Positions 2,697 to 47,637 of a DNA stretch of 64,000 nucleotides are shown here, piece by piece. The notes below the pieces were generated by a model that was given only the letters and a program-made list of their open reading frames with translations, was not told the DNA's origin and made no database searches. Each line of letters starts with the position of its first letter. Within the stretch, counting starts at the first letter, position 1. A program made the position numbers and the translations under genes. The stretch lies in contig NZ_VCHY01000010.1 in the NCBI RefSeq assembly GCF_005877885.1, forward strand, positions 1 through 64,000. The letters run 5' to 3'. This DNA is from Labilibacter sediminis (lineage in GTDB: Bacteria > Bacteroidota > Bacteroidia > Bacteroidales > Marinilabiliaceae).

Positions 2697-3830
2697 ATGA
2701 CATTGAAGGAATCATTCATATTTCAGGGGCAGTCTAGCCAGGAAATATATTTCACCATCAAACCAGATCGAAAAACAGACTTTTTAAATCAATTAAGTCA
2801 GGTGGTAGAAAAAGCAAGCAAAACTCTGCAAGAGCATATGCTTAACAAAGAAGACATCATCACTATTAAGATATGCCTTAGTGATTACTTAAATCAGGAA
2901 AAAACACTACTTGCACACAAATTATTAACCGATATTTCAAAAAACTGCGCTATTAGTATTATTGAAGAACCTCCTGCAGATGGAACAAAAATAAATGTTC
3001 TCTTCTATTGTATTAAAAGAAAAAACACCTCCAAAATAATTAACAATGGACACTTGATATATCAAACCCCAAACTATAGGCATATATTTCACAATTCTAA
3101 AATGGCATCACAAAGCCACTTATCAATTAAAAAGCAAACATCTGACATATTTCAAAATTATATTAATTCCATTAAAGAGTACAAACTAAACATTAAAGAG
3201 CATTGCATACGAACATGGCTCTACATTAGAGACATAGACAAAATGTACGGTGATGTTGTAGAAGCACGTAAAGACTTTTTTTACGACAATAACTTGACCG
3301 AAAAGACACATTATATCACATCAACAGGCATTGAAGGCAAAGGAAATAATTTGTGCAAAGATGTGTGTATTGACTTTTATACGGTGGGGGGAATAAAACA
3401 AGAACAAATTAAACATCTGCATGCCTTGGACTATTTAAATCCAACCTATGAGTATGGCGTTACTTTTGAACGTGGCACGAGTGTAACATATGGGGATCGA
3501 AAACATGTGTTTATATCCGGAACAGCCAGCATTGACAACAAAGGCAATACTATATTTTTGGGTGATGTTAACAAACAACTCATTCGCCTTATGCAAAATA
3601 TTAAAGCTTTACTTGCCGACGCTGAAGCACAAATGGGTGACATAGCAAACATGACAGTTTATTTGCGTGATTATTCTGATTACGACACCGTTACTAAATT
3701 CTTTGCTGTTCATTTTGCCAACATACCTAAGCTAATTGTTATTGGTAAAGTTTGTCGCCCTAATTGGTTGATAGAGGTTGAATGTATTGCTATTTCACAT
3801 TGTAACTCAAATCAATTTCCGGAATTTTAA
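2697..3830 (+). CDS. RidA/YjgF-fold protein, chorismatase-like
   Basis: 377 aa, no signal peptide, so probably cytoplasmic. The C-terminal third (about 255-370) reads as a Rid/YjgF domain: FISGTASIDNKGN, then QLIRLMQNIKALLADA, a MTVYLRDYSDY strand, and a final CRPNWLIEVECIAI segment whose Arg lies where Rid proteins bind the substrate carboxylate. The N-terminal two thirds is divergent and could be a second, degenerate copy of the same fold. This two-domain plan is that of chorismatases (FkbO/Hyg5/XanB2), and similar proteins are often annotated as translation initiation inhibitor/YjgF. It lies 135 bp before the DUF1549 gene on the same strand and may belong to that cassette. Fold level is fairly confident; a chorismate-hydrolysing function is only a suggestion. 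Confidence 0.6.
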   Translation: MTLKESFIFQGQSSQEIYFTIKPDRKTDFLNQLSQVVEKASKTLQEHMLNKEDIITIKICLSDYLNQEKTLLAHKLLTDISKNCAISIIEEPPADGTKINVLFYCIKRKNTSKIINNGHLIYQTPNYRHIFHNSKMASQSHLSIKKQTSDIFQNYINSIKEYKLNIKEHCIRTWLYIRDIDKMYGDVVEARKDFFYDNNLTEKTHYITSTGIEGKGNNLCKDVCIDFYTVGGIKQEQIKHLHALDYLNPTYEYGVTFERGTSVTYGDRKHVFISGTASIDNKGNTIFLGDVNKQLIRLMQNIKALLADAEAQMGDIANMTVYLRDYSDYDTVTKFFAVHFANIPKLIVIGKVCRPNWLIEVECIAISHCNSNQFPEF

Positions 3831-3965: not shown

Positions 3966-6125
3966 ATGCGCCTTACACACTATCTTTTTCTAACCACAAT
4001 ATTACTCCAATTTACAGGCAGTATTGCACAAAAAGTTAGTATTCCTGTAATTGATTTTCGTAATTCCATCCACCCTCAGCTATATAAACAAGGGTGTAGC
4101 ACGATTGCTTGTCATGGTAATACTTATAATAATTTTAAGCTTTCCATGTTTTCCGCATCACCTATGGAAGATTACGAATCCTTATACAAATCATCAGGAG
4201 GAAGATATTGCAATATTTTTGAACCTAACAAAAGCCTAATAATCCGAACATTAAAAGGATACAACAAATCAATACCGAACCATTACAAGGCCAATACTGC
4301 TTTCCTGGAGCAAATTGAAAGGTGGTTGAATGCAGGTGCGCCTTATGAAAGTAGTAAAAGCATTAAGCTGAAAAAGATAACCCTAAATATTGCTAAATCA
4401 AGTAAAATTGCCAAAGGAAGTACTGTAGAACTTGTGACATTAGCCTACTACGATAATAATACTATAGATACAATAACTTCATTTTGTACCTATGAAAGTT
4501 TAAACAAACAATTAATTGCCATCAATAGAAACTTAGCCACTCCACTACAATACGGTGAGGCTAACATTGTGGCCAGGTACATGCATCAATTTGCCAGTAT
4601 AAAAATTAGTATTCCTCAACCACAACTGAGCTATATTCCTGATGGTAAAAGCAAAATTGATCAATTTGTAATCAATAAACTAAAAAAACTAAATATCCCA
4701 CCATCAGAAGTATGTAGCGATGAAGTATTTATAAGAAGATTATATCTGGATATTACCGGACGGATACCTACCCCTGAACAAACTAGAACTTTCTTAAACA
4801 ACACTGCTGATTATAAAAGAGACGAAATAATTAATGAACTTTTATATTCAGAAGCCTTTGCCGATTATCAAACCTTAAAATGGGGAGACCTGTTGAGGGT
4901 AAAATCTGAATTCCCCAGTAACCTTTGGCCAAACGCTGTGCAAGCCTACAACAAGTGGATAAAAACCAGTATAGTTAATAACAAACCATACAATTTATTT
5001 GCACAAGAACTAATCCTGTCTACTGGAAGTAACTTTAGAGAACCAACCGTGAACTTTTATCGTGCCTATCAAAAACGAGAACCAAAATTAATAGGAGAAA
5101 CAGCTGGGCTTATTTTTATGGGGATGCGTTTTGAATGTGCTCGATGCCACGCACATCCCCAAACGAGCATCACTGAAAGACATGCTAATGATATGTCTTT
5201 ATTTTTCAATCAACTTGAATATAAGAAAACAGCCGAGTGGAAAGAAGAAATTGTATATGTCAATTTAGATAAACATCAAGCCAATTCTATAACAATGGTA
5301 AACGGCGATCGCTTATCGTTGGATCAATATCAGGACTCCAGAGCAGCCTTCGCTGAGTGGCTCACCTCCAAAAACAATCCGTATTTTGCCAAAGTGATAT
5401 GTAATCGCATTTGGTATTGGCTAATGGGTAAAGGAATTGTACACGAACCCGATGATTTCAGAATAACCAATCCTCCTTCCAACCCGGAATTATTGGATTA
5501 TCTAACATCTGAATTAATTAAAAATGATTTCGACCTAAAGCACATTTTTGCACTTATCCTTAAATCGGAGACCTATCAACGTTCCTCTGTTTCCAGCTCC
5601 TTAAATATAAACGATGAAACATTCTTTAGCCACCGGCTTTTAAAACGTCTGGAAGCTGAACAACTTATCGATGCTATATGCGACATCACCGGTGTGCCCG
5701 AAAAATATATGAGCAAAGTACCAGAACCTTTTACTTTTCTACCTAAAAATCACCGAGCGGTTTTACTTGAAGATGGAACCATAAGTACTCCATTCTTAGA
5801 AATGTTTGGAAGGCCGTCTCGCGATATATCAAACGAAAATGACCGTAATAATCAATTAAATATGAAGCAAACTTTGCATCTCCTGAATTCTGATCATCTC
5901 CTGAATAAAATAAGACAAAGTCAGAAAATAGCTAACTTACAAAGAACAGCCCAAAACAAAGAAGAATTAATTGATGAACTCTACCTTTTAATATTAAACA
6001 GGTTTGCTTCAACCAACGAAAAAAAAATCGCCTTGTCATATATGGATCAGACTCAGCAAAAGGAAAAAATAGAAGATTTTATTTGGGCATTAATCAATAG
6101 TTCAGAATTTATTTTTAATCATTAA
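3966..6125 (+). CDS. DUF1549/DUF1553 protein with cytochrome-type motifs
   Basis: 719 aa with an N-terminal signal peptide (about 1-21). An N-terminal segment carries GCSTIACHG with Cys44, Cys49 and His50, the CX4CH variant typical of this family. It is followed by a probable bacterial Ig-like stretch (about 140-220), DUF1549/PSCyt2 (about 230-420, with LDITGRIPTPEQ) and DUF1553/PSD1 (about 455-710, with NRIWYWLMGKG). Inside DUF1549 is CARCHAHP (Cys391, Cys394, His395), a canonical CXXCH heme-attachment motif. These proteins are very numerous in Planctomycetota, almost always paired with DUF1501 proteins as here (56 bp downstream). Their biochemical role is not established; an exported multi-domain cytochrome linked to polymer breakdown is a common guess. 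In a Bacteroidota genome it is likely an acquisition. Confidence 0.85.
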   Translation: MRLTHYLFLTTILLQFTGSIAQKVSIPVIDFRNSIHPQLYKQGCSTIACHGNTYNNFKLSMFSASPMEDYESLYKSSGGRYCNIFEPNKSLIIRTLKGYNKSIPNHYKANTAFLEQIERWLNAGAPYESSKSIKLKKITLNIAKSSKIAKGSTVELVTLAYYDNNTIDTITSFCTYESLNKQLIAINRNLATPLQYGEANIVARYMHQFASIKISIPQPQLSYIPDGKSKIDQFVINKLKKLNIPPSEVCSDEVFIRRLYLDITGRIPTPEQTRTFLNNTADYKRDEIINELLYSEAFADYQTLKWGDLLRVKSEFPSNLWPNAVQAYNKWIKTSIVNNKPYNLFAQELILSTGSNFREPTVNFYRAYQKREPKLIGETAGLIFMGMRFECARCHAHPQTSITERHANDMSLFFNQLEYKKTAEWKEEIVYVNLDKHQANSITMVNGDRLSLDQYQDSRAAFAEWLTSKNNPYFAKVICNRIWYWLMGKGIVHEPDDFRITNPPSNPELLDYLTSELIKNDFDLKHIFALILKSETYQRSSVSSSLNINDETFFSHRLLKRLEAEQLIDAICDITGVPEKYMSKVPEPFTFLPKNHRAVLLEDGTISTPFLEMFGRPSRDISNENDRNNQLNMKQTLHLLNSDHLLNKIRQSQKIANLQRTAQNKEELIDELYLLILNRFASTNEKKIALSYMDQTQQKEKIEDFIWALINSSEFIFNH

Positions 6126-6155
6126 TTCTTATCCTGAAAAGGAATTAATGATTAA
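6115..6155 (+). promoter_or_regulatory. Intercistronic hairpin overlapping the DUF1549 stop codon
   Basis: Perfect 14-bp arms TTAATCATTAATTC (6115-6128) and GAATTAATGATTAA (6142-6155) around a 13-nt loop. The left arm includes the TAA stop at 6123-6125. There is no clean T-run, so it looks more like an RNA-stability or processing element inside an operon than a full terminator. Confidence 0.55.
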
Positions 6156-6181
6156 TATTTAATACACTTAGAATAGATAAG

Positions 6182-7522
6182 ATGAGTGATTCAAATAGTA
6201 AAAATAAACCTTCAAACATTGGGCGTCGTCAGTTTCTAAAACGCATGGCCATTGGAATAGGAGCTGTTTCATTTAGTAATTGGCAACTGATGAATGCGAT
6301 GCCATTATCAGCTGTTTCCAAAGCCAAGTCTGTTATTTTTATTTGGTTGGCAGGTGGTCCCAGTCACCTGGACACCTTTGACCCTAAGCCAAAAGCCGGA
6401 AAAGATTATTCTGGACCGTACCGTAAACCTGTTGCAACAACGGTAGATGATGTTTTTATTGGCCAAAAATTACCATTATTAGCACAACAAGCCAGAAAAT
6501 TCACAATAATCAGAAGCATGACGCATGGCCATTTTGGTCATGAAACAGCTTCATATGTAATGCAAACAGGTACTCTTCCCGGGGGGCAATTGGTTTACCC
6601 TTCAATGGGAGCGGTTATATCGTACAAAAAAGAAGGTGTTTATCAGGGTAATATTCCCCCATACATCTCGCTTACATCTCACTCTAAGCGATTTAACGAA
6701 GGTGGTTTTCTTGGGCCTCAATATAAATCTTTTGCAACCGGTGGCGATCCCAATAAAGCCGACTTTGTAGTTGAAGGTTTAGGTAAACAATCCATAAATC
6801 CCAATCACCTTCATGATAAAAAGGCATTGCTAAAATCCATTGATTCATTCTCTAAAAAAATGGAACAAGAGTCATTGATCAATGAACTTTCTATTTATCA
6901 GGAACAAGCCTTTTCTCTTATTACCGGCGATGCAAAAAAAGCCTTCGATCTTTCTTCTGAAAGTGAAAAAACGAAGTCACGTTATGGCAATACAACACTA
7001 GGTCAATCCTGTTTATTAGCTCGAAAACTGGCTGAGCAGAAAGTGCCATTTATTACCGTTCGTTCTGGCGGCTGGGATACACATAAACTGCATTTTGAAC
7101 GCATGGAAGAAAAACTGCCGGAACTCGACAAAGGATTATCGGCACTGCTAGAAGACCTGGACCAAAGAGGAATGCTCGAAGAAACACTTGTTGTTTGCGG
7201 TGGTGAATTTGGGAGGACTCCCAAGGTATTATGGGAACCTCCTTGGAATGGTGGGCGAGGTCATTTTGGGGCAGCATTTAGCTATTTGGTTGCTGGCGGT
7301 GGATTTAAAGGAGGTGAAGTATACGGCAAAACCAATCTGCGTGGCGAAAGCATTATAGAAAATCCTGTTTACCCATGGGACTTAACGGCTACTATATATC
7401 ACCAATTAGGCATTAATCCCAAAGGAACACTGCCTCACCCACGTGGAGGTTTGGCCTATGTGTTGCCCGAAATAAACCATAACAAATCATCTAATGGGAT
7501 TCTAACCAATATTTTAAAATGA
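6182..7522 (+). CDS. DUF1501 protein, Tat-exported, sulfatase-like fold
   Basis: 446 aa. The N-terminus carries a twin-arginine motif GRRQFLKRM (Arg15-Arg16) followed by a hydrophobic stretch, which predicts folded export by the Tat system. The body has the DUF1501 landmarks: FIWLAGGPSHLDTFDPKP near 53-70, MTHGHFGHE, SGGWDTH and CGGEFGRTP, ending with HQLGINPKGTLPHPRGG. DUF1501 belongs to the alkaline phosphatase/sulfatase superfamily, but no formylglycine motif is present, so it should not be called a sulfatase. It follows the DUF1549/DUF1553 gene by 56 bp and precedes the WD40 gene by 13 bp, the standard Planctomycetota order. Tat export suggests a cofactor or metal loaded in the cytoplasm. 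The substrate is unknown. Confidence 0.88.
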   Translation: MSDSNSKNKPSNIGRRQFLKRMAIGIGAVSFSNWQLMNAMPLSAVSKAKSVIFIWLAGGPSHLDTFDPKPKAGKDYSGPYRKPVATTVDDVFIGQKLPLLAQQARKFTIIRSMTHGHFGHETASYVMQTGTLPGGQLVYPSMGAVISYKKEGVYQGNIPPYISLTSHSKRFNEGGFLGPQYKSFATGGDPNKADFVVEGLGKQSINPNHLHDKKALLKSIDSFSKKMEQESLINELSIYQEQAFSLITGDAKKAFDLSSESEKTKSRYGNTTLGQSCLLARKLAEQKVPFITVRSGGWDTHKLHFERMEEKLPELDKGLSALLEDLDQRGMLEETLVVCGGEFGRTPKVLWEPPWNGGRGHFGAAFSYLVAGGGFKGGEVYGKTNLRGESIIENPVYPWDLTATIYHQLGINPKGTLPHPRGGLAYVLPEINHNKSSNGILTNILK

Positions 7523-7535
7523 TACAAATAGTAAC

Positions 7536-8825
7536 ATGGTCGGTACATTGATTAAATACCTAGGCATCATCATAATGACATCAACGCTGTATGTCAATAG
7601 CTTTGCTCAAACGATAAGTTCTCCTAAAAACATTAGAGTTCCTGTTACTTTTGGCAATAAAAGTAAAGCTACAGCCTTGGTTCATACGGGCCTCAAAGCA
7701 CAAATTACCGGATTAACTTTTAGTAAAGATGACAAATGGCTTGCTGCTGGTGGCTATGGCGAAATAATTATTTGGAATATTGATCAACCACAAATACAAA
7801 AAATATTTCGCTCTCCCGCCATCAAAGGTCATGTACGCTCATTGCAGTTTTTGAATAAATACACATTGGTGATTGGATGCGGTAATCCTGGATCGTTTGG
7901 ACAGGTACATATTATTGATCTCAATAGCAACATGATTACATATAGCTTTGCTAAAACTAAAGATATCATAACAAAAGTGGCCATATCTCCAGATAAAAAT
8001 ACAGTTGCTGCCGGCGATGCTTCAGGGCAAGTGTACATATACAACTTAAAAGAAAATCAACTTATTAAGCACATTGACAAGCTACAAAAAGAGATTACGG
8101 GCTTGGCTTTTCGCCACGATACTACCAAACTGGGAATGTGCTCCATAGATGGACACATGCTTGTATGGAATTTAAATGATCACTCCTCTTTTTTTGCAGA
8201 TAAATTTTCATCACAGTTAATGGGATTCAGCTTTTTAAAAAATGGAAATTCTGCTGCTATAGCTATCAGTAGTAAAGAATCTAATTCTATCAAACCAATT
8301 GCTATTTACTCTAACCAAAGTGCAATTAAAAAAATAAAGAAAAATGGCAACAATCAGAAAATATTCAATCTGGAACAACACCGTCCATTGACGTTAGAAA
8401 TAATGAACCAAGGCAAATATGCCTTTATAGGATGTACAGATGGTTCTTTAATGGTTAAGCCTACGAACAATGCTAATGCCCACAAAATTATAAGGGCACA
8501 TCATGATTGGATTACCTCTATTCGACTCTCCAATAACGAATCAAAGCTTGCTACGGCCGATGCCCTAGGAGTAATTAAAATATGGAGTACAGCTGATAAC
8601 CGGCTAGTCATCACATTAATTCAACTGTGTAACGGCGTTGAGGATTGGCTTGCTGTAACTCCTCGCGGTTTCTACTGTAGCTCAACTCCTGACCTACTTG
8701 AATGGGAGGATAAAGAGGATGTACCCACACACCTTATTAACCAACTCAATAACCCCAATAAAGTATATGAACTTATGCTAAGGCAGCCATTTAAAAAATC
8801 AAGGAATAATAAAAGACAGAAGTAA
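7536..8825 (+). CDS. Exported WD40-repeat beta-propeller protein
   Basis: 429 aa with a signal-like N-terminus ending SFAQ; an internal Met14 is an alternative start. At least six WD40-type blades are visible by their GH/aspartate-x-W pattern, for example TGLTFSKDDKWLAAGG then IIIWNI near 60-85, VAISPDKNTVAAGDASG, and TSIRLSNNESKLATADALG then IKIWS near 330-350. WD40 proteins of this kind usually accompany DUF1549/DUF1553 and DUF1501 genes and are thought to be scaffolds. The gene is 13 bp after DUF1501 and 30 bp before the PPC gene, so co-transcription is very likely. An AT-rich inverted repeat (8821-8842) with a later T-run overlaps the stop and might dampen expression of the next gene. Confidence 0.82.
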   Translation: MVGTLIKYLGIIIMTSTLYVNSFAQTISSPKNIRVPVTFGNKSKATALVHTGLKAQITGLTFSKDDKWLAAGGYGEIIIWNIDQPQIQKIFRSPAIKGHVRSLQFLNKYTLVIGCGNPGSFGQVHIIDLNSNMITYSFAKTKDIITKVAISPDKNTVAAGDASGQVYIYNLKENQLIKHIDKLQKEITGLAFRHDTTKLGMCSIDGHMLVWNLNDHSSFFADKFSSQLMGFSFLKNGNSAAIAISSKESNSIKPIAIYSNQSAIKKIKKNGNNQKIFNLEQHRPLTLEIMNQGKYAFIGCTDGSLMVKPTNNANAHKIIRAHHDWITSIRLSNNESKLATADALGVIKIWSTADNRLVITLIQLCNGVEDWLAVTPRGFYCSSTPDLLEWEDKEDVPTHLINQLNNPNKVYELMLRQPFKKSRNNKRQK

Positions 8826-8855
8826 TTTCAAAAAAAATTACTCAGCTTTTTTTAA

Positions 8856-10955
8856 ATGATAAACAAAAGTCAAATGCGATTACTACAAATACTATTTCTA
8901 AGTTTTTTCAGTTTCTTCTGTTCTATATTAATGGCCACTCCCCATATTGGATACATTTACCCATCTGGTGGACAAAGGGGCACTACGTTTGACATTACAA
9001 TTGGTGGCCAGAATATGGATGAAATAACCGGTTTATTTATCAGTGGAGAAGGTGTTAATGGCCAATTCATTAAGATACTACCCAAACTTAATAGGGATAA
9101 AAAAGATGTGAACCGCGAACAGGAAAATGAACAAATCTCGGAAAGAGTAATTTTTACCATTAGAATTGATAAAAAAGCTAAGTTAGGAATGCGAGATCTT
9201 CGTATTCAAACTAAAAATGGTTTCTCTAACCGCTTATTTTTTGAAGTCGGTGAACTAACTGAAACTATCGAACCTGCATACGTTGAGAGTATTCAACCAA
9301 TTGCTACTCCATTTATTGCCAATGGACAGATATTTCCAGGTAAAACCGATAAAATAAAATTTAAAGCAAACAAAGGAGAAACCATCGTTTGTCATACCAA
9401 AGCTCGTGCATTAATCCCGTATTTGGCAGATGCTGTACCTGGCTGGTTTCAGGCAGTATTAACATTAAAAGATAAAAATGGCAATGAGGTCGCTTTTAAC
9501 GATGATTATATGCTCAGTCCGGATCCTGTGATTATCTATAAGATACCCCAAACACAGCATTACACGCTTGAAATTAGAGATGCCATTTACAGAGGCAGGG
9601 CAGATTTTGTTTATCGCATAGCAATAGGTGCCTTACCCTATGTCACCTCTTTTTTTCCCCTTGGAGGACAAAAAGGCAAGAGTGTTAAAGTTGACTTAAA
9701 AGGTGTTAACCTGACTAAGAATCAGCTTCAAGTAAAAATACCTCTATCAAATGAAAATAAAATTCAACTATCTGCCGAAGGTAATCAACATATTGCCTCT
9801 AATTCTTTTATGTTCGCAACAAGCAACTATAGGGAATATACATCTTCAAAAAAGCACCTGACAAAAAAAGATGCACTACCCATTTCCTTAAAAACAATTA
9901 TGAATGGTCAAATGAACAGTAACGAACAGTATCATTGGTTTAAGTTTGAGGCTGAAAGGAAAGAGCAAATAATGGTTGAAGTAAATGCCCGCCGCCTGGG
10001 TTCTCCATTGGATGCACAAATAACAATATTCAACAGCAACAATCAAATCATTGCGCAGAACGACGATTTTGCAGATAAAAGTGAAGGCATGGTGACCCAT
10101 CATGCTGACGCTAAAGTGATTTTTAAAACCTGGAAAACCGATACCTATTACATCAGGTTACGCAATCTGCAAGGTACTGGTAGTGTACACCACAACTATC
10201 GTTTGCTGCTAGATAGACCTAAACCTGATTTTTCGTTACGTATTGAACCATCCAACTTAACTATTAACCGTGGTAACACAGCTGCATTTACTGTTCATGC
10301 TTTGCGTAAAAATGGTTTTAAAGGCAATATAGAACTTGACTTTAAAGCGTTACCCAAAGGGTATACATACAGCAACAACATCATTAAAAAAGGTAACAAT
10401 AAATTAATGATGACTATCACAGCTCCTTCCAATGCAAAATTAGGAATACTTAACCTTCAAATGGAAGGATGGGCAAATTACAAAGGCGAGAGAATTGTTC
10501 GAAAGGCTGAGCCTGCTGAGGAACTTATGCAAGCATTTCTTTATCTACATTTACTACCTGCTAAAGATTTTTTAGCTACTGTAGTTCCTTCTCTTCCATA
10601 CAGAATATCCACAGGTATTGAAAATACAATTGCTATGGGAGAAAATGACTCCATTCGTATAAAAGTTAAGCTGGATCGTAATGATAATTTCTCAATACCT
10701 GTCCGGGTATTTCTTAGCAGTTATAATAAAGGTATCAAAGCAAAACCTATTGTTTTTAAAGATGATATGCGTGAAGTGAGTTTTAAAATAGAAACCTATA
10801 ATGCAAAACCCGGCTCCCAATACGCTGTTTCAATCAAAGGAATCGCTAAGAAAGCAGCAATAAAAAAAGGGAAAAAGAAAAAAGGGAAAAAGAATAAAGC
10901 TGAATTTATTACAGTACTATCACCAGCTTTTGAACTGGAAATAAAAGATGATTAA
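8856..10955 (+). CDS. Exported TIG/IPT and PPC-domain protein with Lys-rich tail
   Basis: 699 aa with signal peptide (about 1-27). It opens with a TIG-like domain, IGYIYPSGGQRGTTFDITI, then a PPC (bacterial pre-peptidase C-terminal) beta-sandwich, a second TIG-like segment VTSFFPLGGQKGKSVKVDL near 265, a second PPC-like domain with QIMVEVNARRLGSPLDAQI near 375, and Ig-like domains after 460. Near the C-terminus (about 666-683) is a strikingly lysine-rich tract. Such proteins are the usual fourth member of the Planctomycetota DUF1549/DUF1501/WD40 cassette and are presumed adhesion or substrate-binding partners. No catalytic domain is seen. No Shine-Dalgarno precedes the ATG at 8856; Met7 (8874) is an alternative start. 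It ends the rightward cassette. Confidence 0.78.
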   Translation: MINKSQMRLLQILFLSFFSFFCSILMATPHIGYIYPSGGQRGTTFDITIGGQNMDEITGLFISGEGVNGQFIKILPKLNRDKKDVNREQENEQISERVIFTIRIDKKAKLGMRDLRIQTKNGFSNRLFFEVGELTETIEPAYVESIQPIATPFIANGQIFPGKTDKIKFKANKGETIVCHTKARALIPYLADAVPGWFQAVLTLKDKNGNEVAFNDDYMLSPDPVIIYKIPQTQHYTLEIRDAIYRGRADFVYRIAIGALPYVTSFFPLGGQKGKSVKVDLKGVNLTKNQLQVKIPLSNENKIQLSAEGNQHIASNSFMFATSNYREYTSSKKHLTKKDALPISLKTIMNGQMNSNEQYHWFKFEAERKEQIMVEVNARRLGSPLDAQITIFNSNNQIIAQNDDFADKSEGMVTHHADAKVIFKTWKTDTYYIRLRNLQGTGSVHHNYRLLLDRPKPDFSLRIEPSNLTINRGNTAAFTVHALRKNGFKGNIELDFKALPKGYTYSNNIIKKGNNKLMMTITAPSNAKLGILNLQMEGWANYKGERIVRKAEPAEELMQAFLYLHLLPAKDFLATVVPSLPYRISTGIENTIAMGENDSIRIKVKLDRNDNFSIPVRVFLSSYNKGIKAKPIVFKDDMREVSFKIETYNAKPGSQYAVSIKGIAKKAAIKKGKKKKGKKNKAEFITVLSPAFELEIKDD

Positions 10956-11099: not shown

Positions 11100-12908
11100 C
11101 TATAACTTACGCAAATACAAATAGAACGCGGCAAATTCTATTCCATCCGTATCAGTAAAAAAAGCCTTCATTTGTTTACGTCCTTCAGGCAGATATGCTC
11201 TAAAAGTGATGTCTTTCTTGCTCATATCTAATTTTTGCTCCATATAAAGTCCTTCAATACTCAGTGTGGCTTTTTCAATATCCAGCACAATACCTGCTGG
11301 CATGGCATCATAATAATTCGATTCAACGCCCAGTTTGGGTGTTGTATCACCAAAGCCCAATCCTGATTCACGAGGCCAGCGACTCATAGTGATTTCGTAT
11401 TCTCCCGCTTCTTGCACATCTATCATCCAATAGCCATTTGATAATGCTGACTTTTTACCTCGCTTAGGGTTACGAACATGCGACTGAAACCATGGCACTT
11501 GAGTAAAGGTATGTAAATCGTGTACCGTGATAATATGCTCATCAATTTGAGGTAGGCCAATTTTATAAGCTTCGAAATGGCCAAAATCGCGTGAGGTATA
11601 ATCCCACCATTGCTCGTAGGCTTCACGCATCTCCGCAACTTTTTCGGGGTGTTGATCGGCTATATCATTCTCCTGCCCTATGTCTTTACAAATATTGTAA
11701 AGCGCTTTTCCATCAATTAAACGCCATTCATCATCCATTACGGCACACATGCGCCATTTTTTAGGTTGTTGCTGACGATTATTATCCACCACACAATAGC
11801 GATGGGGCCATTCTTTCACTTCTTTGCTCAATAAGGGAGCGAGACTGATTCCATCCATCATTGGTCCATCTACTTTAGTCAATTTACACAAATCCATCAG
11901 TGTTGGCATTACATCAAAGTTCATTGCCAGTTGATGCACATCGTGTCCACCAAGCAGCTGACCATCTTTCCAACGGATAAAGAAGGGGACGCGATGACCA
12001 CCTTCGTATTGAGAACTTTTTTTGCCCTTCATACCGGCATTATATCCATTTTTTTGTCCATTTCTGTATTCAATACCAGAAGCTGTTCCGTTATCAGTTG
12101 TAAAAATGAGTATGGTATTATCCTTCAATCCTAATTCTTCCAACTTCTTATCCAGGATGGCCATATTGTCGTCAATATTGGTAATCATTCCATAAAAAGT
12201 CTTTTGCCTTTCCGTAATTGATATTTCATCTTTGTAGATGTCGTAATATTTCTTCTCGACATTAAAAGGACCGTGTGGTGCATTGGTAGAGAGGTAGATA
12301 AAGAATGGCTTATCCTTCTTACGTTCAAGAAAATCCATGGCCTCACGGAAAAATACATCGGTACAATAGCCTTCAAATTTTTCAGGAACTCCATTTCTAA
12401 AGTAGGTATCATCGAAGTAATCGTTTTCCCAGTAATCTGGTGTTTGTCCAACACCACCAGCTCCATGATAAACCGTTTCGTCAAATCCACGGTCTTCTGG
12501 TAGGTAGGGATATGCATCACCCAAATGCCATTTTCCATACATGGCTGTTGCATAGCCATTAGCTTTAAATACATCGGGCATGGTCACAAATTTTTCACGC
12601 AAGATATTACAACCTCCTATAGTATGCCATACCCCTGCCCGATTACCATCAGCACCGGTCATCAGACCGGAACGGCTGGGGGCGCACGTTGTTCCTGAAT
12701 GGAAATTGGTCAGACGAATTCCTTCGTTATATAACTTATCCATATTAGGTGTTTGGATAATTTTGTTGCCATGCGCAGCAATGTCCCCATAGCCTTGGTC
12801 ATCGGTGATGATAAGAATGACATTGGGTTTTCTTTTACTATCTGCTTTTGATAAGAAACTATTAAACACAAGGCATAGAGCCAATAACAGTACATTAAGT
12901 TTATTCAT
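11100..12908 (-). CDS. S1-family sulfatase (formylglycine type)
   Basis: 602 aa with signal peptide (about 1-23). The core has NVILIITDDQGYGD (metal-binding Asp36-Asp37), the formylglycine motif C-A-P-S-R with Cys75 followed by GLMTG, GKWHLGD, and FTTDNG near 270. A C-terminal extension after about 480 (NGYWMIDVQEAGEYEI and SRWPRE) is a beta-sandwich found in several algal-polysaccharide sulfatases. It has no T9SS tail, so it is predicted to be periplasmic. It requires the formylglycine-generating or anaerobic maturase enzyme, not in this window. It lies 21 bp downstream of a paralogous sulfatase and clearly arose by tandem duplication. It removes sulfate esters from a polysaccharide or oligosaccharide; the position attacked cannot be read from sequence. 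Confidence 0.92.
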   Translation of the reverse strand: MNKLNVLLLALCLVFNSFLSKADSKRKPNVILIITDDQGYGDIAAHGNKIIQTPNMDKLYNEGIRLTNFHSGTTCAPSRSGLMTGADGNRAGVWHTIGGCNILREKFVTMPDVFKANGYATAMYGKWHLGDAYPYLPEDRGFDETVYHGAGGVGQTPDYWENDYFDDTYFRNGVPEKFEGYCTDVFFREAMDFLERKKDKPFFIYLSTNAPHGPFNVEKKYYDIYKDEISITERQKTFYGMITNIDDNMAILDKKLEELGLKDNTILIFTTDNGTASGIEYRNGQKNGYNAGMKGKKSSQYEGGHRVPFFIRWKDGQLLGGHDVHQLAMNFDVMPTLMDLCKLTKVDGPMMDGISLAPLLSKEVKEWPHRYCVVDNNRQQQPKKWRMCAVMDDEWRLIDGKALYNICKDIGQENDIADQHPEKVAEMREAYEQWWDYTSRDFGHFEAYKIGLPQIDEHIITVHDLHTFTQVPWFQSHVRNPKRGKKSALSNGYWMIDVQEAGEYEITMSRWPRESGLGFGDTTPKLGVESNYYDAMPAGIVLDIEKATLSIEGLYMEQKLDMSKKDITFRAYLPEGRKQMKAFFTDTDGIEFAAFYLYLRKL

Positions 12909-12929
12909 ATTGGGATTTTTTTCAAACTA

Positions 12930-14705
12930 TTATTTTATTAATTCGATATAAGCGTAATAAGCACCACGTTCAACACCATCACTGTCAAGCATAGTTGTTT
13001 GCATTTTATAAGAACCCTTCTTTAAATCAACAATAAAGTCAATTTCATAATCTTCATCGCTCACTTGTTGACTTTGGCTGAACTCTCCAATATTAAGGCT
13101 CATTGATTCTATTTGTAAAGCTTTTCCTTCCGGTCTATCCTCAACAAAAGGAATACCTTTTAAGGCAGGAATACCCGAACAAATGGGCGTTTTAGCTTCT
13201 CTTGGCCAGCGTGATAAAGATACTTTATATTTACCCAATTTAACTACTTCAACAGGCCAGAAACCGTTATCAATTACACCGGGTCGAATATGTTTTTGAT
13301 TGTAGGTAAACTCCTTTGTATCATGCCACGAATGAGCTGTTAGTAACACTGGATTTTCAGGTCCGCCAATGTAGTTGGGCACCATGTCATCATAACGATC
13401 TGAAATATGACTCCACCAATGCTCATATTCCTCCATCAACTGTTTGGCAATCTCAGGATACTTTTCAATAATGTTATTTCTTTGTCCTTTATCCTTTTTG
13501 ATGTCAGTTAAGGTTAACACCTTATTTTTCGAAGATTTAGTTAAGCGATATTGTGAGCTCATGACCTGCATATCCTTATACTTTTCAGGTTCATACAGTT
13601 GCTGATTATGAACGGTAATCACTCTGTTATAATCATGGTCTGTCTTTTTACCTGTCATCAGATCTAAAATATTGATACCATCCATATCCTTATGTTTCGG
13701 ATGCTTCAAATCGCATAGTTTAATAAAGGTTGGCAACAAATCGATATGTGAGCAAAGTGCATCTACATCTTTTCCTCCTTGAACATTTCCATCAGGCCAA
13801 TAGGCCATAAAAAATGTACGATTGGCTCCATCATATGCCTGTCCTTTATGGTCTCGCATACCGGCATTATACACTTTCCATCCGGTTGTGGCACCGTTGT
13901 CTCCCATTACAATAAGTAAGGTATTTTCCGCCAGACCGTTTTCTTGTAAATAAGCTCGTAAACGAGCTATATTTTCATCAATTTTTTCGATTAGTCCGTA
14001 CTGCTTTGCAGCTTTTTCAGGCACGCCGGTTTCTAAATAATGCCGATAATATTTGTCCTCAACCTCCATAGGACCATGGGGTGCATTACAAGCCAGGTAT
14101 ATAAAAAATGGTTTTTCCTTATGCTTTTCCGCAAACAGAATAGTCTGATCAAACCAAAAGTCAGTGCAATAACGCTTATATATTTCCGGAATGCCATTAT
14201 GAAAAAATTTACCCCCAAAATAATGGTTATTCCAATAATCAGGTGTTTCACCAATTACGCCACCTCCATGATGAAATGCTTCATCAAAACCACGGTCTAT
14301 AGGACGATAGGGCCATGAATCACCTAAGTGCCATTTGCCAAACATAGCTGTTTTGTACCCGCCAGTCTTAAAACACTCTGCCATGGTCACTTCATCCTTA
14401 TGCATGATGTTACGCCCTTTGATGGTTGCCCATACACCAGTACGTGCTGAATATTTGCCTGTCATTAAAGCAGCACGTGTTGGTGCACACATGGCATCCA
14501 CGTGAAAATCGGTAAACCTTACCCCATCCTTATATAACTGATCTAAGTAGGGTGTTTTTATATATGGATTTCCTGTGCAAGCTAAATCACCATAACCCTG
14601 ATCATCGGTTATAATTAAAATAACGTTAGGTATACTGTTGGGAGCCGCGAAAGTAGTGCATGAAAACAGGACCATATAAGCGGCCAACAAATTAATGATT
14701 CTCAT
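12930..14705 (-). CDS. S1-family sulfatase (formylglycine type), tandem paralogue
   Basis: 591 aa with signal peptide (about 1-20, ending TFAA). It has NVILIITDDQGYGD (Asp34-Asp35), the modification motif C-A-P-T-R with Cys73, GKWHLGDSWPYRP, and a GDNG metal site near 267. The C-terminal extension (NGFWPVEVVKLGKYKV and SRWPREAK) matches that of the neighbouring sulfatase at 11100-12908. The two differ at the specificity-determining C-terminal half, so they may hydrolyse different sulfate positions of one glycan. This is the first gene of the leftward two-sulfatase unit; its upstream side is insulated by the terminator of the next gene at about 14850. No T9SS tail, so probably periplasmic. Confidence 0.92.
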   Translation of the reverse strand: MRIINLLAAYMVLFSCTTFAAPNSIPNVILIITDDQGYGDLACTGNPYIKTPYLDQLYKDGVRFTDFHVDAMCAPTRAALMTGKYSARTGVWATIKGRNIMHKDEVTMAECFKTGGYKTAMFGKWHLGDSWPYRPIDRGFDEAFHHGGGVIGETPDYWNNHYFGGKFFHNGIPEIYKRYCTDFWFDQTILFAEKHKEKPFFIYLACNAPHGPMEVEDKYYRHYLETGVPEKAAKQYGLIEKIDENIARLRAYLQENGLAENTLLIVMGDNGATTGWKVYNAGMRDHKGQAYDGANRTFFMAYWPDGNVQGGKDVDALCSHIDLLPTFIKLCDLKHPKHKDMDGINILDLMTGKKTDHDYNRVITVHNQQLYEPEKYKDMQVMSSQYRLTKSSKNKVLTLTDIKKDKGQRNNIIEKYPEIAKQLMEEYEHWWSHISDRYDDMVPNYIGGPENPVLLTAHSWHDTKEFTYNQKHIRPGVIDNGFWPVEVVKLGKYKVSLSRWPREAKTPICSGIPALKGIPFVEDRPEGKALQIESMSLNIGEFSQSQQVSDEDYEIDFIVDLKKGSYKMQTTMLDSDGVERGAYYAYIELIK

Positions 14706-26205: not shown

Positions 26206-26227
26206 TTAAGTTTATATATAATTAGCT

Positions 26228-28648: not shown

Positions 28649-28677
28649 TCTGTAACCTATTTCCACCTGATTCACGG

Positions 28678-30921: not shown

Positions 30922-30964
30922 TTCCCTTATTTTTCTTATTACTATTTCTTTTTATTGAATATAT

Positions 30965-31001
30965 AAACCGTTAATGCATTGTGTTAATGCATTAACGGTT
31001 T
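30965..31001 (-). promoter_or_regulatory. Perfect 16-bp hairpin between SusD and the enzyme genes
   Basis: Arms AAACCGTTAATGCATT (30965-30980) and AATGCATTAACGGTTT (30986-31001) with a 5-nt loop. On the minus strand it is followed by ATATAT rather than a T-run, so it is more likely an mRNA processing or stability element that keeps SusCD transcript above the enzyme transcript than a full stop. Confidence 0.7.
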
Positions 31002-31008
31002 TTGAGTT

Positions 31009-32820
31009 CTAGTATCCTGCATTCTGATCAATCAGGTTAGGGTTTACCATCATTTCTGTTTGCGGGATCGGCAAATAGCGATGGTGAGGTTTTAGTTCGG
31101 TATGGATCACCAAATTAAAAAACAGGTTTGTGTGTGCCTGATTAGTTTTATCCAATGGATCACTCACATTGGCTAATTTATTCCAGCATTTCATAATTTT
31201 AATGGCGCGCTCATATTGTATTCCCCAACGTTTCAAATCGAACCAACGATGACGCTCGAAACACATTTCCCAGGCTCTTTCCATTTGCAAGGCGTCTCTG
31301 AACAAGTCTTGGTATTGCCCTGTTAAAGTTCCGTCGTTGTAATAGCGATGACGCTTTGTGTAATTTGGTAAGCTCGTAAACATGTTGCTCTGATACAACC
31401 AGCCAAATTGATCTTTCGGTGTATCACCGGCTAACTGAGCCGGATTGACAGCATCCAGGAAAGCATCGTCCATTGTTTCTATCTGCGCTCTGCTTCGTAC
31501 ATCATTAATGTATTCGTAAGCTGTTCTTGATGTTAATCCGTTATCAGCAGAGGTAAAAGTAGCAGAAGGACCATTACCCAACTCATTAATAACTTCAGCC
31601 AACATCAGCAATACATCTGCATAACGATACACCGGTGCGTTTTGTGATTTATCAGTTGATTGAGTACGAAACTTAGCATGCGTCCACTGACCGGAACCAA
31701 TTGAATTACGTTGGCGTGTATTTTTATTTAGCTTATAAGCTCCTGTATTCCATTTAAAGCGCACATCATCATCATGGTAAGCCATTGTTATCTCACAACC
31801 TACCTGACCTTGCCCCCACATATAGTAGAACCCTTCTTCCGGGTAATAAGTATTTCCACCGGAGATGGAACGAAATCCCCAGTTACCGGAACGATCCGGA
31901 CCCATAAACTGAATGTCAAATATCAATTCTTTCCCAACTTCACCGCGTGAAGAATTTAAAAATATTTGACCATAGCCCATAAAATCATTGCTATTGGCTA
32001 CACTTACCAATCCATGCCAACTGTTTTGTTCAACATCTAATAAGTAAGTTGCTGCTTTTTCCAACGATGGTATTGCTTTAGCCTCATCTCCATTCGCAAA
32101 ATATGCATCGGGCTGCTCTGATACAGCATCTATGTAGTGCCCGGCTTTAGCCATATATACCTTTGCCAATAAGGTGGCTGCTGCCCAACGAGACGCCCTG
32201 CCACCCAAATCATCGCCGGATGCCGGCAGGTGGTTATAGGCAAATGTAGCATCTGAAATAATTGTATCCATTACTTCGGCTACAGATGTTCGGCCCACAT
32301 AAAAATCTTCCGTGAATCCCTGTGCATCCTTTAGGTACAAAGGTACAGCGCCGTATAAACGAACTAAATCGAAATAGGTAAATGCACGTAAGAATTTGGC
32401 TTCTGCAATCAACTTTTGTTTCGTTTGTTCTTCCTCCTCGCTTAATGCTTCAATACCCGGTATGTTTTCAACACAAGCGTTGGCATCTGCTATCACTTTA
32501 TAGGATTGTTGCCACAACTTATACACATCATCAGAAGCTGAAGTGTATTGTCCCACAATAGTTGAGAAAAAAGCAGATGTTCCTTTCCAACTGGCATAAG
32601 CTTCGTCGGTTGCATAATTACCGATATAGGGATAAAACTGCCCCCATGGGATAGATGCATCATAGTAAACACCCAACACCGCCATATCTGCGTTGGCTGT
32701 AGAGTTAAACAATACTCCTTTATGAAGTGCTGATCGTGGTTCTTCAATTAGAAAATCTTCACAACCTGAAAGCAGTAGCAGAACAAATAAGCTTGCGATT
32801 ATATATTTAAAATTTTTCAT
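31009..32820 (-). CDS. susD: SusD-like glycan-binding lipoprotein, PUL 1
   Basis: 603 aa with SPII signal and lipobox LSGC (Cys20). The RagB/SusD architecture is visible: the N-terminal TPR-like helices (QKLIAEAKFLRAFTYFDLVRLYG near 133-155, GRTSVAEVMDTIISD), RYADVLLMLAEVINE near 395-410, and the C-terminal FERHRWFDLKRWG and YLPIPQTEM signatures. Such proteins lid the cognate SusC transporter and bind the oligosaccharide at the cell surface. The gene is 21 bp downstream of SusC and certainly co-transcribed. Confidence 0.97.
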   Translation of the reverse strand: MKNFKYIIASLFVLLLLSGCEDFLIEEPRSALHKGVLFNSTANADMAVLGVYYDASIPWGQFYPYIGNYATDEAYASWKGTSAFFSTIVGQYTSASDDVYKLWQQSYKVIADANACVENIPGIEALSEEEEQTKQKLIAEAKFLRAFTYFDLVRLYGAVPLYLKDAQGFTEDFYVGRTSVAEVMDTIISDATFAYNHLPASGDDLGGRASRWAAATLLAKVYMAKAGHYIDAVSEQPDAYFANGDEAKAIPSLEKAATYLLDVEQNSWHGLVSVANSNDFMGYGQIFLNSSRGEVGKELIFDIQFMGPDRSGNWGFRSISGGNTYYPEEGFYYMWGQGQVGCEITMAYHDDDVRFKWNTGAYKLNKNTRQRNSIGSGQWTHAKFRTQSTDKSQNAPVYRYADVLLMLAEVINELGNGPSATFTSADNGLTSRTAYEYINDVRSRAQIETMDDAFLDAVNPAQLAGDTPKDQFGWLYQSNMFTSLPNYTKRHRYYNDGTLTGQYQDLFRDALQMERAWEMCFERHRWFDLKRWGIQYERAIKIMKCWNKLANVSDPLDKTNQAHTNLFFNLVIHTELKPHHRYLPIPQTEMMVNPNLIDQNAGY

Positions 32821-32841
32821 TTCTTAGTTGATTTTTGTGGT

Positions 32842-35800
32842 TTAGAAATTAAGGTTTAAACCGAAAGTAATGGTTTTCGTTAAGGGGTATGCACTGTAAT
32901 CATATCCCGGACGTAATCCATTTAAAGAGGATGTATTAACAGCCGGATCGTAGCCGGTATATCCTGTTAATGTCCATAAATTTGTTCCGCTCACATAAAA
33001 ACGCATTTTATTAATTCCGTATTTACGTGTTATTTTTGATGGCAATGAATAACCGAGCGTTAGTGATTTCAATCTCAGATACGAACCATCTTCAATATAA
33101 GTGTCGTTAAGGTTTTCGGTGTGGTCTCCTGTTCCGATGTATATATTTTCATTCGAGGGGTTACCCTCAACCAGTACTACATCTTTATTTTCCCGAATAG
33201 GTCTATTGTTTTCATCAAAAATTATTTCATACTCTGTAGCACGCCAATAGTCTGCATTTAATTTGTTATGAAAACTTGTATTTGGTTGTACTAAATGCCA
33301 CTTGGTACCATGAAAAATCTCTTTCCCGTAACTAAACTCTAGAAGAAAATTCATATCAAAGTTTTTATACATGATACTATTGCTGAAACTTCCTGTAAAA
33401 TCAGGTTGTGAAACGCCAACAATCGTTCGGTCATCGGCATCAATATCACCATCTCCATCCAAATCACGGAATCGACGCTTTCCGGGTTGATCACCTGATC
33501 TGAAAGCCGGATACTCCCCGTTTTCATCAGCATTTAAATGCCATCCCGGAGCTAATGGATTACCATCAATACCCTGAGGTCCTTCAGCATGCCCAAAACT
33601 ATAGGTAAAATCATCCTGCTGCCAAATACCGGCACTTTCCCAACCCCACCAAATACCAATGGGTTGTCCTTCAATCAGCATAGTTTGATTAGGTCCTCGT
33701 GTGCCAGCTACCTGAATCGTATCATTATCGCCAAGGTCTGTAACCATATTACGATTCATTGCAATGGTAAAAGTAGAAGTCCATTTAACTTTCTTATCGA
33801 TATTCACCGTATTTAAAGCAAGCTCAACGCCTTTGTTCTCCATCTTACCCATGTTTTTATACATGGTACCTCCTTGCACACCAGCTGTTGATGGAACAAT
33901 AGCATTTAATAGCAAGTCTTTCGTATTCTTTTGGTAGACATCAACCGATCCGGAGATGCGATTATTGAAGAAACCAAAATCAATACCGACATTATATGCC
34001 TCTGTCGTTTCCCATTTCAAATCATTATTTGGCAATTGTTGTATGGAAGAAGAAGGCGTTAGGTTTCCTCCAATCACAGCATCGTTGAGGCTATAGGTAT
34101 CATATGGCTGATAGGCCGGGATATTTTGGTTACCAGTTACCCCATAACCCAACCTAACCTTCAGGTTAGATACTGCTTCGGCCGACTCCATAAATCCTTC
34201 TTCGGATATACGCCACGAAGCTGCTGCCGATGGGAAATAGCCCCAACGGTTATTATATGCCACCCTGGATGAACCATCAGCCCTGACAGAAGCTGTTAAA
34301 CTGTATTTATCATCAAAAGAGTAGAATGCACGTCCTAAATACGACATTAATGTCCATCCATCAGCGTATGAAGACGGTTTTGTAGGGTCCATCCCAATCT
34401 GAATGGCATCATTCCCTAAGTTCTCGATACTATAATTCTGGTTGATAGTCGTTAAGCTGTATGAATCAAATTGATTGGCCGTTGTTCCTACCAATGCATT
34501 TAATTTGTGCTTGCCGTTGAATGTTTTATTGTATGTAAGTAACAAATCGCTTACCCATTTTGTAGTTGTACGGTTACGAATGAATGATTTACCTTGCGTA
34601 CTTAATCCCCATGAAGTTGTTGAAGGGAAGAAGTTAGATATTTTCATGTCGTTCATATTACCACCGGCTGACGCCTTAACGTCCAAACCTTTGCCAATAT
34701 TAATTTTCACAAAAGCATTCACATTAAAGTAGGTGCTTTTAGTATTCATATCCACTCCTGTAGCCGTAAGGTAAGGACTAAATGCTGATGATTCATTCTC
34801 TTCATCGTCTAATACATAATTCCCATCTTCATCTGTTAATGGGTTAAGCGGGCTATAACGCAGGGCCTGTAGTAATATACCGGCGTTCTGATCACCACTA
34901 CTAGCATTACTGGTAAGCATACCATTATTTACCAGGTATGAACCAAACATATTAATACCAAACTGAACGCGTTTCTTGGCATCTGTTCTAAGGCTGAAGT
35001 TAAGGGTATATCTATCCATTTCGGTATTTTGCAAAATACCTTTGTTATTATAATACCCCATACCCACATTAAAGTTATTACCATTGGCACCACCGTTTAT
35101 ACCAACATGGTAGTCCTGTACAACGCCTTGACGGGTTACTGCATCCATCCAATCTGTTGTAGTTGTATCTTTAAATGCGCTGGTATCCCAGTACTTGCCA
35201 TAACCGGTGTTTTGAATATCTTCCTCGGTCATTAAGCTTTTCTGAGGGTATCTGAAATGGTAGCCATTTTTAAAATTAGCAAACTCATAGGAGTCCATCA
35301 TATCGTAAACATCTGTATCGGCAAATTGCACACCTCCCGAGGTATTTACAGAAATATTTAGGCTCCCGCTCTTTCCCTTTTTGGTAGTGATCATGATCAC
35401 CCCATTAGCTCCCTGAGCACCGTATATAGCTGTTGCCGATGCATCTTTTAATATATCTACCGATTCAATATCATTAGGCGAAAGACCGGCAATAGGACTC
35501 AAAGCCTGAGCTTGTTCATTTCCACCACTGTCTGAGTTATTCATTACCGGAACACCATCGATCACAAACAGCGGTTCACTGCTTCCGCTAATTGAGTTGG
35601 CTCCACGAATCCGAATTGATGTTGCTCCTCCCGGTGAATTATCCCCGGTTTCAATAACAACACCTGCTGCACGCCCTATTAATGCCTGCTCTAATGTTGG
35701 GGCTCCACTTTCCACTAACTGGGCAGCACTTACCGAAGATACGGATCCCGTCAAGTCACTTTTTTTCATGGTACCATATCCTACAGCAACCACCTCATTA

Positions 35801-36129
35801 AGGCTAACCACATCGTAAGGTAACACTATTTTAAGCGCCTCATTGGATGCTACAGTTACTTCCTGAGATACCATACCTATAAAGGAAACCAACAATACAT
35901 CACCTATATTCGCTTTCAAATTAAAATTACCTTTGATATCGGTAATTGTTCCGGTTGATGTTCCTTTTATTGTTACTGTTACTCCAGGTAACGGTTCTTT
36001 TCTATCATCAGTTACATGACCACTTACACTTAATTGCTGAGCATGGACCAAAGGAATAAAAAGCATCATAATTAACAATGCCATCAACTTTTGTTTAATG
36101 ACTAGATGCATTTTTCTTTTCTTTTTCAT
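32842..36129 (-). CDS. susC: SusC-like TonB-dependent transporter, PUL 1
   Basis: 1095 aa. A signal peptide (about 1-30) is followed by a carboxypeptidase-D-type beta-sandwich (VSGHVTDDRKEPLPGVTV, about 34-110), the TonB-box/plug region with NEVVAVGYGTMKKSDLTGS near 111-130, and a large barrel ending FGLNLNF. It forms the outer-membrane import pore with SusD for oligosaccharides of the PUL 1 substrate, powered by TonB. It is the first gene of the operon. In the 240-bp leader a small hairpin TGGAGG-N9-CCTCCA (36172-36192) is present; the HTCS is expected to bind upstream, but I could not define an operator. Confidence 0.97.
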   Translation of the reverse strand: MKKKRKMHLVIKQKLMALLIMMLFIPLVHAQQLSVSGHVTDDRKEPLPGVTVTIKGTSTGTITDIKGNFNLKANIGDVLLVSFIGMVSQEVTVASNEALKIVLPYDVVSLNEVVAVGYGTMKKSDLTGSVSSVSAAQLVESGAPTLEQALIGRAAGVVIETGDNSPGGATSIRIRGANSISGSSEPLFVIDGVPVMNNSDSGGNEQAQALSPIAGLSPNDIESVDILKDASATAIYGAQGANGVIMITTKKGKSGSLNISVNTSGGVQFADTDVYDMMDSYEFANFKNGYHFRYPQKSLMTEEDIQNTGYGKYWDTSAFKDTTTTDWMDAVTRQGVVQDYHVGINGGANGNNFNVGMGYYNNKGILQNTEMDRYTLNFSLRTDAKKRVQFGINMFGSYLVNNGMLTSNASSGDQNAGILLQALRYSPLNPLTDEDGNYVLDDEENESSAFSPYLTATGVDMNTKSTYFNVNAFVKINIGKGLDVKASAGGNMNDMKISNFFPSTTSWGLSTQGKSFIRNRTTTKWVSDLLLTYNKTFNGKHKLNALVGTTANQFDSYSLTTINQNYSIENLGNDAIQIGMDPTKPSSYADGWTLMSYLGRAFYSFDDKYSLTASVRADGSSRVAYNNRWGYFPSAAASWRISEEGFMESAEAVSNLKVRLGYGVTGNQNIPAYQPYDTYSLNDAVIGGNLTPSSSIQQLPNNDLKWETTEAYNVGIDFGFFNNRISGSVDVYQKNTKDLLLNAIVPSTAGVQGGTMYKNMGKMENKGVELALNTVNIDKKVKWTSTFTIAMNRNMVTDLGDNDTIQVAGTRGPNQTMLIEGQPIGIWWGWESAGIWQQDDFTYSFGHAEGPQGIDGNPLAPGWHLNADENGEYPAFRSGDQPGKRRFRDLDGDGDIDADDRTIVGVSQPDFTGSFSNSIMYKNFDMNFLLEFSYGKEIFHGTKWHLVQPNTSFHNKLNADYWRATEYEIIFDENNRPIRENKDVVLVEGNPSNENIYIGTGDHTENLNDTYIEDGSYLRLKSLTLGYSLPSKITRKYGINKMRFYVSGTNLWTLTGYTGYDPAVNTSSLNGLRPGYDYSAYPLTKTITFGLNLNF

Positions 36130-43118: not shown

Positions 43119-43204
43119 CTTAGTTATAAAAAAAGATTCGAATAAGCGTTTACTCTATACCGTTCAAACCTCTATAATTGTTCAATAAATAGTAATTGCT
43201 TCGC

Positions 43205-47614: not shown

Positions 47615-47637
47615 TTTGCTACTCCCAATCAATAATT

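Follow-up and report, generated by a model that had tools for sequence, protein, structure and literature searches.

A DUF1549/DUF1553, DUF1501, WD40 and PPC gene cassette of likely lateral origin in Labilibacter sediminis

Known DUF1501 clusters and the Labilibacter cassette

Gene sets for exported proteins of the DUF1549/DUF1553 and DUF1501 kind are known chiefly from Planctomycetes and related bacteria, and the families DUF1549, DUF1553 and DUF1501 are amplified and uncharacterised in Planctomycetota and Verrucomicrobiota. DUF1501-containing genomic clusters in bacteria of the Planctomycetes-Verrucomicrobia-Chlamydiae (PVC) group were reportedly treated by Kamneva et al. in 2012. Here we describe a four-gene cassette of this kind in the Bacteroidota species Labilibacter sediminis, located within the first 64,000 nucleotides of contig NZ_VCHY01000010.1 (assembly GCF_005877885.1), a stretch referred to below as the window. 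The best reading overall, which we put forward tentatively and at somewhat less than even probability, is that of a laterally gained, periplasmic, metallohydrolase-like DUF1501 module with a partner carrying haem motifs.

In the portions of the published sources drawn on here and below, PSCyt genes of freshwater Verrucomicrobia are often located near sulfatases, are inversely correlated with the density of glycoside hydrolase (GH) genes and have products predicted to be periplasmic or cytoplasmic (PMC5615132), and DUF1501 genes of Planctomycetes frequently adjoin WD40 genes (PMC5587647). The DUF1501 module is noted in compartmentalised PVC species (PMC4960237, PMC4452313), and in Rhodopirellula baltica the PSD1 and PSC2 domains occur 41 times each and were taken as a hint of redox function (PMC2754498). 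A term search of PMC7356697 and PMC8857213 returned nothing on the DUF1501 module, and no publication on the DUF1501 fold or on a relation between DUF1549 and DUF1800 was found, judging by titles and abstracts. New here are the profile match of DUF1501 to sulfatases with its invariant residues, the probable relation of DUF1549/DUF1553 to DUF1800, and the DUF1501 arrays and DUF1549-DUF1501 pairs on viral contigs.

The cassette consists of four open reading frames (ORFs) on the + strand, separated by 56, 13 and 30 bp. The first gene (3966..6125) encodes a protein of 719 residues with the domains DUF1549 (PSCyt2; Pfam, 1.4e-38, 133.4 bits, cut-off 29.8) and DUF1553 (PSD1; 2.2e-48, 165.2 bits, cut-off 28.5), the second (6182..7522) a DUF1501 protein of 446 residues (4.6e-96, 322.8 bits, gathering cut-off 27) with a sulfatase-like profile, the third (7536..8825) a WD40 beta-propeller of 429 residues (PF00400, 3.3e-19, plus propeller models) and the fourth (8856..10955) a protein of 699 residues with a PPC domain at residues 358-436 (9927..10163, + strand; 1.3e-6). 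Judged by eye, without a signal-peptide program, the first, third and fourth proteins have Sec-like N-termini and the DUF1501 protein has a twin-arginine motif; the host genome encodes TatC and a cytochrome c assembly protein. ORFs and Pfam matches thus confirm the original prediction of four same-strand, exported-type proteins with these spacings. The C-terminal tail of the type IX secretion system (Por_Secre_tail) was found on none of the four and on six of the 28 window proteins scanned, and a periplasmic location would fit its absence from the cassette proteins.

Like the PVC clusters (Kamneva et al. 2012, as cited in PMC4452313 and PMC4960237), the cassette joins DUF1501 to neighbours bearing signal peptides, but it does so in a Bacteroidota host. 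The genes of freshwater Verrucomicrobia (PMC5615132) likewise encode PSCyt2/PSD1-type proteins with sulfatases often nearby, and they reach a high frequency in some genomes, whereas the window holds one copy with convergent sulfatases. Pairs of DUF1800 and DUF1501 genes, such as those accompanying chitin synthase genes (PMC5122149), also combine a twin-arginine-motif DUF1501 with a large partner, but the partner is DUF1800 and their DUF1501 has N, M or S at position 64 (n = 30). The order DUF1549/DUF1553, DUF1501, PPC is shared with a locus of Ignavibacteriales UBA1304 (L032), compared with which the window additionally has the WD40 gene, the N-terminal domain of the DUF1549/DUF1553 protein and the haem motifs.

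The DUF1501 protein and its partners

The DUF1501 protein looks sulfatase-related and appears to have a metal-site-like set of residues, judging by profiles and alignments. Comparison of the DUF1501 profile with that of the sulfatases (PF00884) using hhalign gave 95.9% and a score of 77.2, with 40 column shuffles scoring at most 21.5, and the match pairs the C-terminal portion of DUF1501 with the middle of the sulfatase profile. Against the PDB (E <=10) the DUF1501 profile had 23 matches, 18 of them sulfatases (best E 0.0033). DUF1501 shares with sulfatases this profile match and the alignment of E342 to the Asp of their T-D-N-G stretch, but differs from them in the sulfatase nucleophile motif C/S-x-P-x-R, of which the only instance, SGPYR at 77, is not conserved (N replaces R in L032).

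The conserved residues were counted over 195 aligned DUF1501 rows, of which about 147 come from viral contigs and many are near-copies, so that the counts are not independent. The twin-arginine pair R15-R16 (6224..6229, this and the following on the + strand) is kept in 194 rows, as is E342 (7205..7207); the candidate metal ligand D64 (6371..6373) is D or E in 195/195. The candidate active-site residue H120 (6539..6541), the candidate metal ligands D299 and H301 of the stretch D299-T300-H301 (7076..7084) and the candidate metal ligand H361 (7262..7264) are invariant (195/195). All of these except position 64 are also present in 30/30 DUF1501 proteins partnered with DUF1800. In their order, D ... 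H ... D-x-H ... E ... H, these residues are reminiscent of the metal ligands in the alkaline-phosphatase superfamily.

Regarding the DUF1549/DUF1553 protein, two candidate haem sites were detected, an N-terminal CX4CH motif at residues 44-50 (4095..4115, + strand), at which haem may be bound, and a core CxxCH motif at residues 391-395 (5136..5150, + strand). At least one CxxCH is present in 68 of 69 DUF1549 rows, the exception being L032 with none. The DUF1549/DUF1553 gene of that locus (L032:9875-11467) lacks the N-terminal domain, the CxxCH segment and any CxxCH or CX4CH motif, and since its DUF1501 and PPC partners are kept, haem seems dispensable there. By scripted count, DUF1501 lies directly downstream of 40 of 43 DUF1549/DUF1553 ORFs (three of 46, at locus edges, were dropped), and one of the three misses, L035:4461-6794, is flanked by DUF1501 on both sides. 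The DUF1549 profile had five weak PDB matches (best E 0.038), among them three cytochromes c and hydrazine synthase alpha, and the single sequences of the window's DUF1549, DUF1501 and PPC proteins had none at E <=1.

A distant homology of DUF1549/DUF1553 to DUF1800 is likely, the profiles scoring 66.1 against each other compared with at most 30.8 for 60 shuffles and 14.7 for the reversed profile. A DUF1501-like gene is present in the flank of 30/30 DUF1800 loci (L121-L150, the best-scoring from 85 genomes with a match), by coordinates downstream and on the same strand. Neither the DUF1549 nor the DUF1800 profile matched the sulfatase or DUF1501 profiles. It is possible, if rather doubtful, that DUF1549/DUF1553 and DUF1800 form one superfamily of exported partners of a metal-dependent, sulfatase-fold DUF1501, which would make up a widespread two-component modifier of glycans or the envelope that is also virus-borne and in which haem is optional.

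Regarding the two remaining genes, proteins like the window's WD40 protein were found at none, and like its PPC protein at one (L032), of 44 other DUF1549 loci from the window's phylum, comprising 34 labelled Bacteroidota, nine Ignavibacteria and L032 (phmmer, E <=1e-5). Scans of viral contigs with the PPC alignment and with the WD40 protein revealed no relative, and a plasmid search gave only short Thermus matches for PPC and generic propellers for WD40. The host genome has a second PPC gene (G000:C144:107138-107785; L119:9136-9780), a relic interrupted by four stops, with an IS4-family transposase nearby. Over about 225 C-terminal residues this relic is 42-46% identical to the window PPC protein, and a GH43-like gene that is 40% identical to the GH43 gene of the window (549-1856) is situated about 2.7 kb away.

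Distribution, probable lateral gain and mobile relatives

The cassette was likely gained laterally, as suggested by its distribution and by gene trees. The host genome (6.36 Mb, 372 contigs) has a single DUF1549 gene. Among 61 genomes, comprising the host and 60 relatives of which eight belong to the genus, DUF1549 and DUF1501 (the latter at E <=1e-10) were each detected in the host alone, and PPC was likewise confined to the host among the nine genomes of the genus. A scan for exact short peptide matches in 84,980 species genomes, covering all phyla but able to reach only close relatives, returned a single relative, Ignavibacteriales UBA1304 (L032), whose proteins are 49% (DUF1549/DUF1553), 50% (DUF1501) and 35% (PPC) identical to those of the window and encoded in the same order, with no WD40 gene and no sulfatase in the 21 kb covered. 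The window DUF1549 protein matched 11 of 294 genomes of the class of L032, namely L032's own and ten others, nine of which form a separate lineage in the DUF1549 tree.

In that tree (69 rows; rows with fewer than 300 matched residues dropped) the window grouped with L032 at a Shimodaira-Hasegawa-like approximate likelihood ratio test (SH-aLRT) support of 99 and then with a sequence from viral contig L175 (97), and the 36 Bacteroidota-labelled rows fell into other groups. A clade of the window with the 15 short-type Bacteroidota rows was rejected by the approximately unbiased (AU) test (p 1.57e-6), as was one with all 36 (AU p 2.82e-7) and one of L032 with the nine other Ignavibacteria rows (p 8.44e-6). 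The DUF1501 tree (103 of 195 rows) also joined the window and L032 (SH-aLRT 99), and the test of a clade with 15 Bacteroidota rows (60 of 195 rows) gave a marginal result (p 0.0496). All trees stem from rapid searches, are supported by SH-aLRT values alone and have long branches, and the groups for the clade tests were picked after tree inspection.

The genome counts and the DUF1549 tests support the view of the original prediction that the cassette is a transferred unit; regarding separation from Bacteroidota homologues, that view holds for DUF1549, which stands apart from all 36 rows, and is marginal for DUF1501. A donor in Planctomycetota or Verrucomicrobiota, which had also been proposed, did not emerge: within its reach the species scan gave an Ignavibacteriales genome, and two rows from a Singulisphaera plasmid sit elsewhere in the DUF1549 tree than the window. 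The family is not exclusive to Planctomycetes, since DUF1549 occurs in 49 of 395 sampled Bacteroidota genomes (18 of 395 by search with the window protein at E <=1e-20); two members of this same-phylum sample, G331 and G366, recur at identical coordinates in the class of an Ignavibacteriales genome.

The gain reads as old, because the 4-mer composition of the cassette is native and the second PPC gene is a relic. A foreign composition was rejected, the 4-mer distance of the cassette being 0.113 compared with a mean of 0.127 over 57 windows of 7 kb, and this composition, together with the 64-66% matches of the adjacent sulfatase within the genus, makes it unlikely that the assembly includes a foreign contig here. 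In a comparison intended to reveal the empty site, three sulfatase loci of the same genus (L091-L093) matched neither the cassette genes nor the upstream genes at 549-1856 (GH43) and 2697-3830, and the ends of the insertion could therefore not be placed.

Related genes are also present on plasmids and viral contigs. The Singulisphaera plasmid, a single planctomycete record, carries DUF1549/DUF1553-DUF1501 pairs with no WD40 or PPC annotated alongside. Viral contig L175 of IMG/VR encodes a relative of the window DUF1549 protein that includes the N-terminal part (37%, with the CX4CH motif kept, at 138); a gene for a phage major head protein lies within a few kb of it. When the uncultivated viral contigs of IMG/VR were scanned with the DUF1501 profile, 174 relatives emerged, and among the best 80 of these (L176-L255) at least two DUF1501 ORFs were detected in 37 loci, at least three in 23 and at least four in 8. 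A DUF1549 match was present in 18 of these best 80 of 174 loci, 16 of which are in the tree, the other two scoring 40 and 46 bits; these genes mostly adjoin DUF1501 (for example L176:6772-12448 and L221:5706-9281). An RR pair lies within the first 35 residues of 139 of 148 viral DUF1501 ORFs. Six neighbour proteins from three viral contigs had PHROGs matches to UvsX, DnaB, primase, exonuclease, DNA polymerase and ribonucleotide reductase, and PHROGs gave no match for the three viral DUF1501 proteins tested or for the four window proteins. The window DUF1549 and DUF1501 proteins had no match in isolate phage genomes at E <=1e-4, a search that did not include the viral versions; in the portion of PMC5418858 cited here, a 61-residue Pseudomonas phage ORF has a weak DUF1501 match.

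Proposed role, alternatives and genomic surroundings

In the reading as a periplasmic metallohydrolase-like module, the DUF1501 protein would be a Tat-exported relative of the sulfatase (alkaline-phosphatase) superfamily with metal-site-like residues and no conserved sulfatase nucleophile motif, and the DUF1549/DUF1553 protein a Sec-exported partner, normally with c-type haem motifs and probably a distant relative of DUF1800. The WD40 propeller and the PPC protein may serve as accessory binding or scaffold parts. The resulting complex would reside in the periplasm and bind an anionic glycan or glycan fragment, from which an ester group, either sulfate or phosphate, would be removed or transferred by metal-dependent catalysis, and the haem partner would tune or sense the redox state and not take part in the core chemistry. 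The glycan contexts of some relatives count in favour of this: among pairs on gammaproteobacterial plasmids, that of Catenovulum lies beside a fucose permease gene and that of Saccharobesus beside two GH88 genes. The sulfatase-like profile, the invariant residues and the haem-motif-free relative give specific testable predictions, and a Bacteroidota host with just one copy of the cassette offers a cleaner deletion target than a genome with dozens.

Several results weigh against this proposal. The PDB matches of DUF1501 are weak and several are near-copies, and no nucleophile was identified in the protein. The DUF1501 proteins partnered with DUF1800 (n = 30) match sulfatases weakly (12%, score 35.6) and have no acid at position 64. 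The match between DUF1549 and DUF1800 is confident over 43 columns only, because of which their homology falls short of proof. Structure models built from two-sequence alignments (window and L032) were unusable, with predicted local distance difference test (pLDDT) values of 33.1 for DUF1501 and 31.2 for DUF1549, and promoter- and terminator-like sites at the cassette were no richer in a consensus scan than in shuffles. To the same side belong the facts that the cassette can share no transcript with the sulfatases or with susCD and that none of the ten Ignavibacteria DUF1549 loci (L032 included) has a sulfatase nearby.

Regarding the partnership with sulfatases and Sus proteins, the two sulfatases next to the cassette (11100..14705, - strand, with CAPSR and CAPTR motifs) are convergent with it, which excludes a shared transcript. 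Within the genus, the adjacent sulfatase finds its best matches (64-66%) in three of eight genomes, all three without the cassette genes. In DUF1549 loci of about 7 to 21 kb, for which neighbour counts are rough as there is no background rate, sulfatases were found near five of 34 Bacteroidota loci and susC/D-like genes near two of 34 and none of the ten Ignavibacteria loci (L032 included). The suggestion that the cassette works with the neighbouring sulfatases is thus not borne out. Its description as lying beside Sus loci holds in part: susC/susD pairs are present in the window, but the nearest (31009..36129, - strand) is about 20 kb away with a large hybrid two-component system (HTCS) regulator and other genes between, and the cassette shares neither strand nor transcript with it, as the genes of a SusCD polysaccharide utilization locus would. 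Nor is a SusCD context unique to the window, given the two of 34 Bacteroidota loci and a Haliscomenobacter plasmid on which DUF1501 precedes DUF1553 with susC/susD nearby. A real SusCD-linked case was observed in L035:2986-15438, where susC-susD is followed on the same strand by two DUF1549-DUF1501 pairs.

Proximity to sulfatases would be incidental in a sulfatase-rich genome if the module modified the host's own surface polymer in envelope biogenesis and not a food polysaccharide, an alternative that we consider unlikely. With 201 matches to one sulfatase query in the host genome such proximity is expected, and in Ignavibacteria the pairs have no sulfatase nearby. DUF1501-DUF1800 genes accompany those for bacterial chitin synthases (in the cited part of PMC5122149), and the DUF1501 and DUF1549-DUF1501 genes on viral contigs might be expected for alteration of the host surface. 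The scanned neighbours in the window, by contrast, are catabolic (sulfatases, GH29, GH43, GH141-like and susCD), and the immediate surroundings of the cassette yielded neither a glycosyltransferase nor a capsule gene.

That the c-type haems do the chemistry, by oxidative glycan cleavage or electron transfer, with DUF1501 as a structural partner, is decidedly improbable. The near-constant presence of CxxCH in DUF1549 rows (68/69), the cytochromes c and hydrazine synthase alpha among the weak PDB matches and the interpretation of the family as redox proteins in the cited portion of PMC2754498 are consistent with it. However, L032 keeps the pair and PPC without either haem motif, DUF1800, the apparent relative of DUF1549/DUF1553, pairs with DUF1501 likewise, and the invariant metal-site-like residues are located in DUF1501. 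Very unlikely is a passenger cassette of little use to the host and heading for decay, for which the absence of its DUF1549 and DUF1501 from 60 relatives and the decayed second PPC gene might speak, since all four genes have open frames, native composition and conserved motifs, which argues for long selection.

Upstream of the cassette are the GH43 gene and, directly adjacent, the RidA-domain gene at 2697-3830, whose product weakly resembles FkbO/Hyg5 chorismatases (43 bits, cut-off 325). Beyond the sulfatases, the window encodes the HTCS regulator, GH43, GH29, beta-helix and GH141-like proteins and two susC/susD pairs. A fucoidan-like substrate is plausible for the window's enzymes because GH141 endo-fucanases exist (cited part of PMC12786026), and the regions 25000-36129 and 38203-51389, with GH29, GH43, GH141-like, sulfatase, beta-helix and susCD genes, may represent a locus for a fucose-containing sulfated glycan. 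The most atypical 4-mer composition of the window was found in the 7-kb windows starting at 25001-29001.

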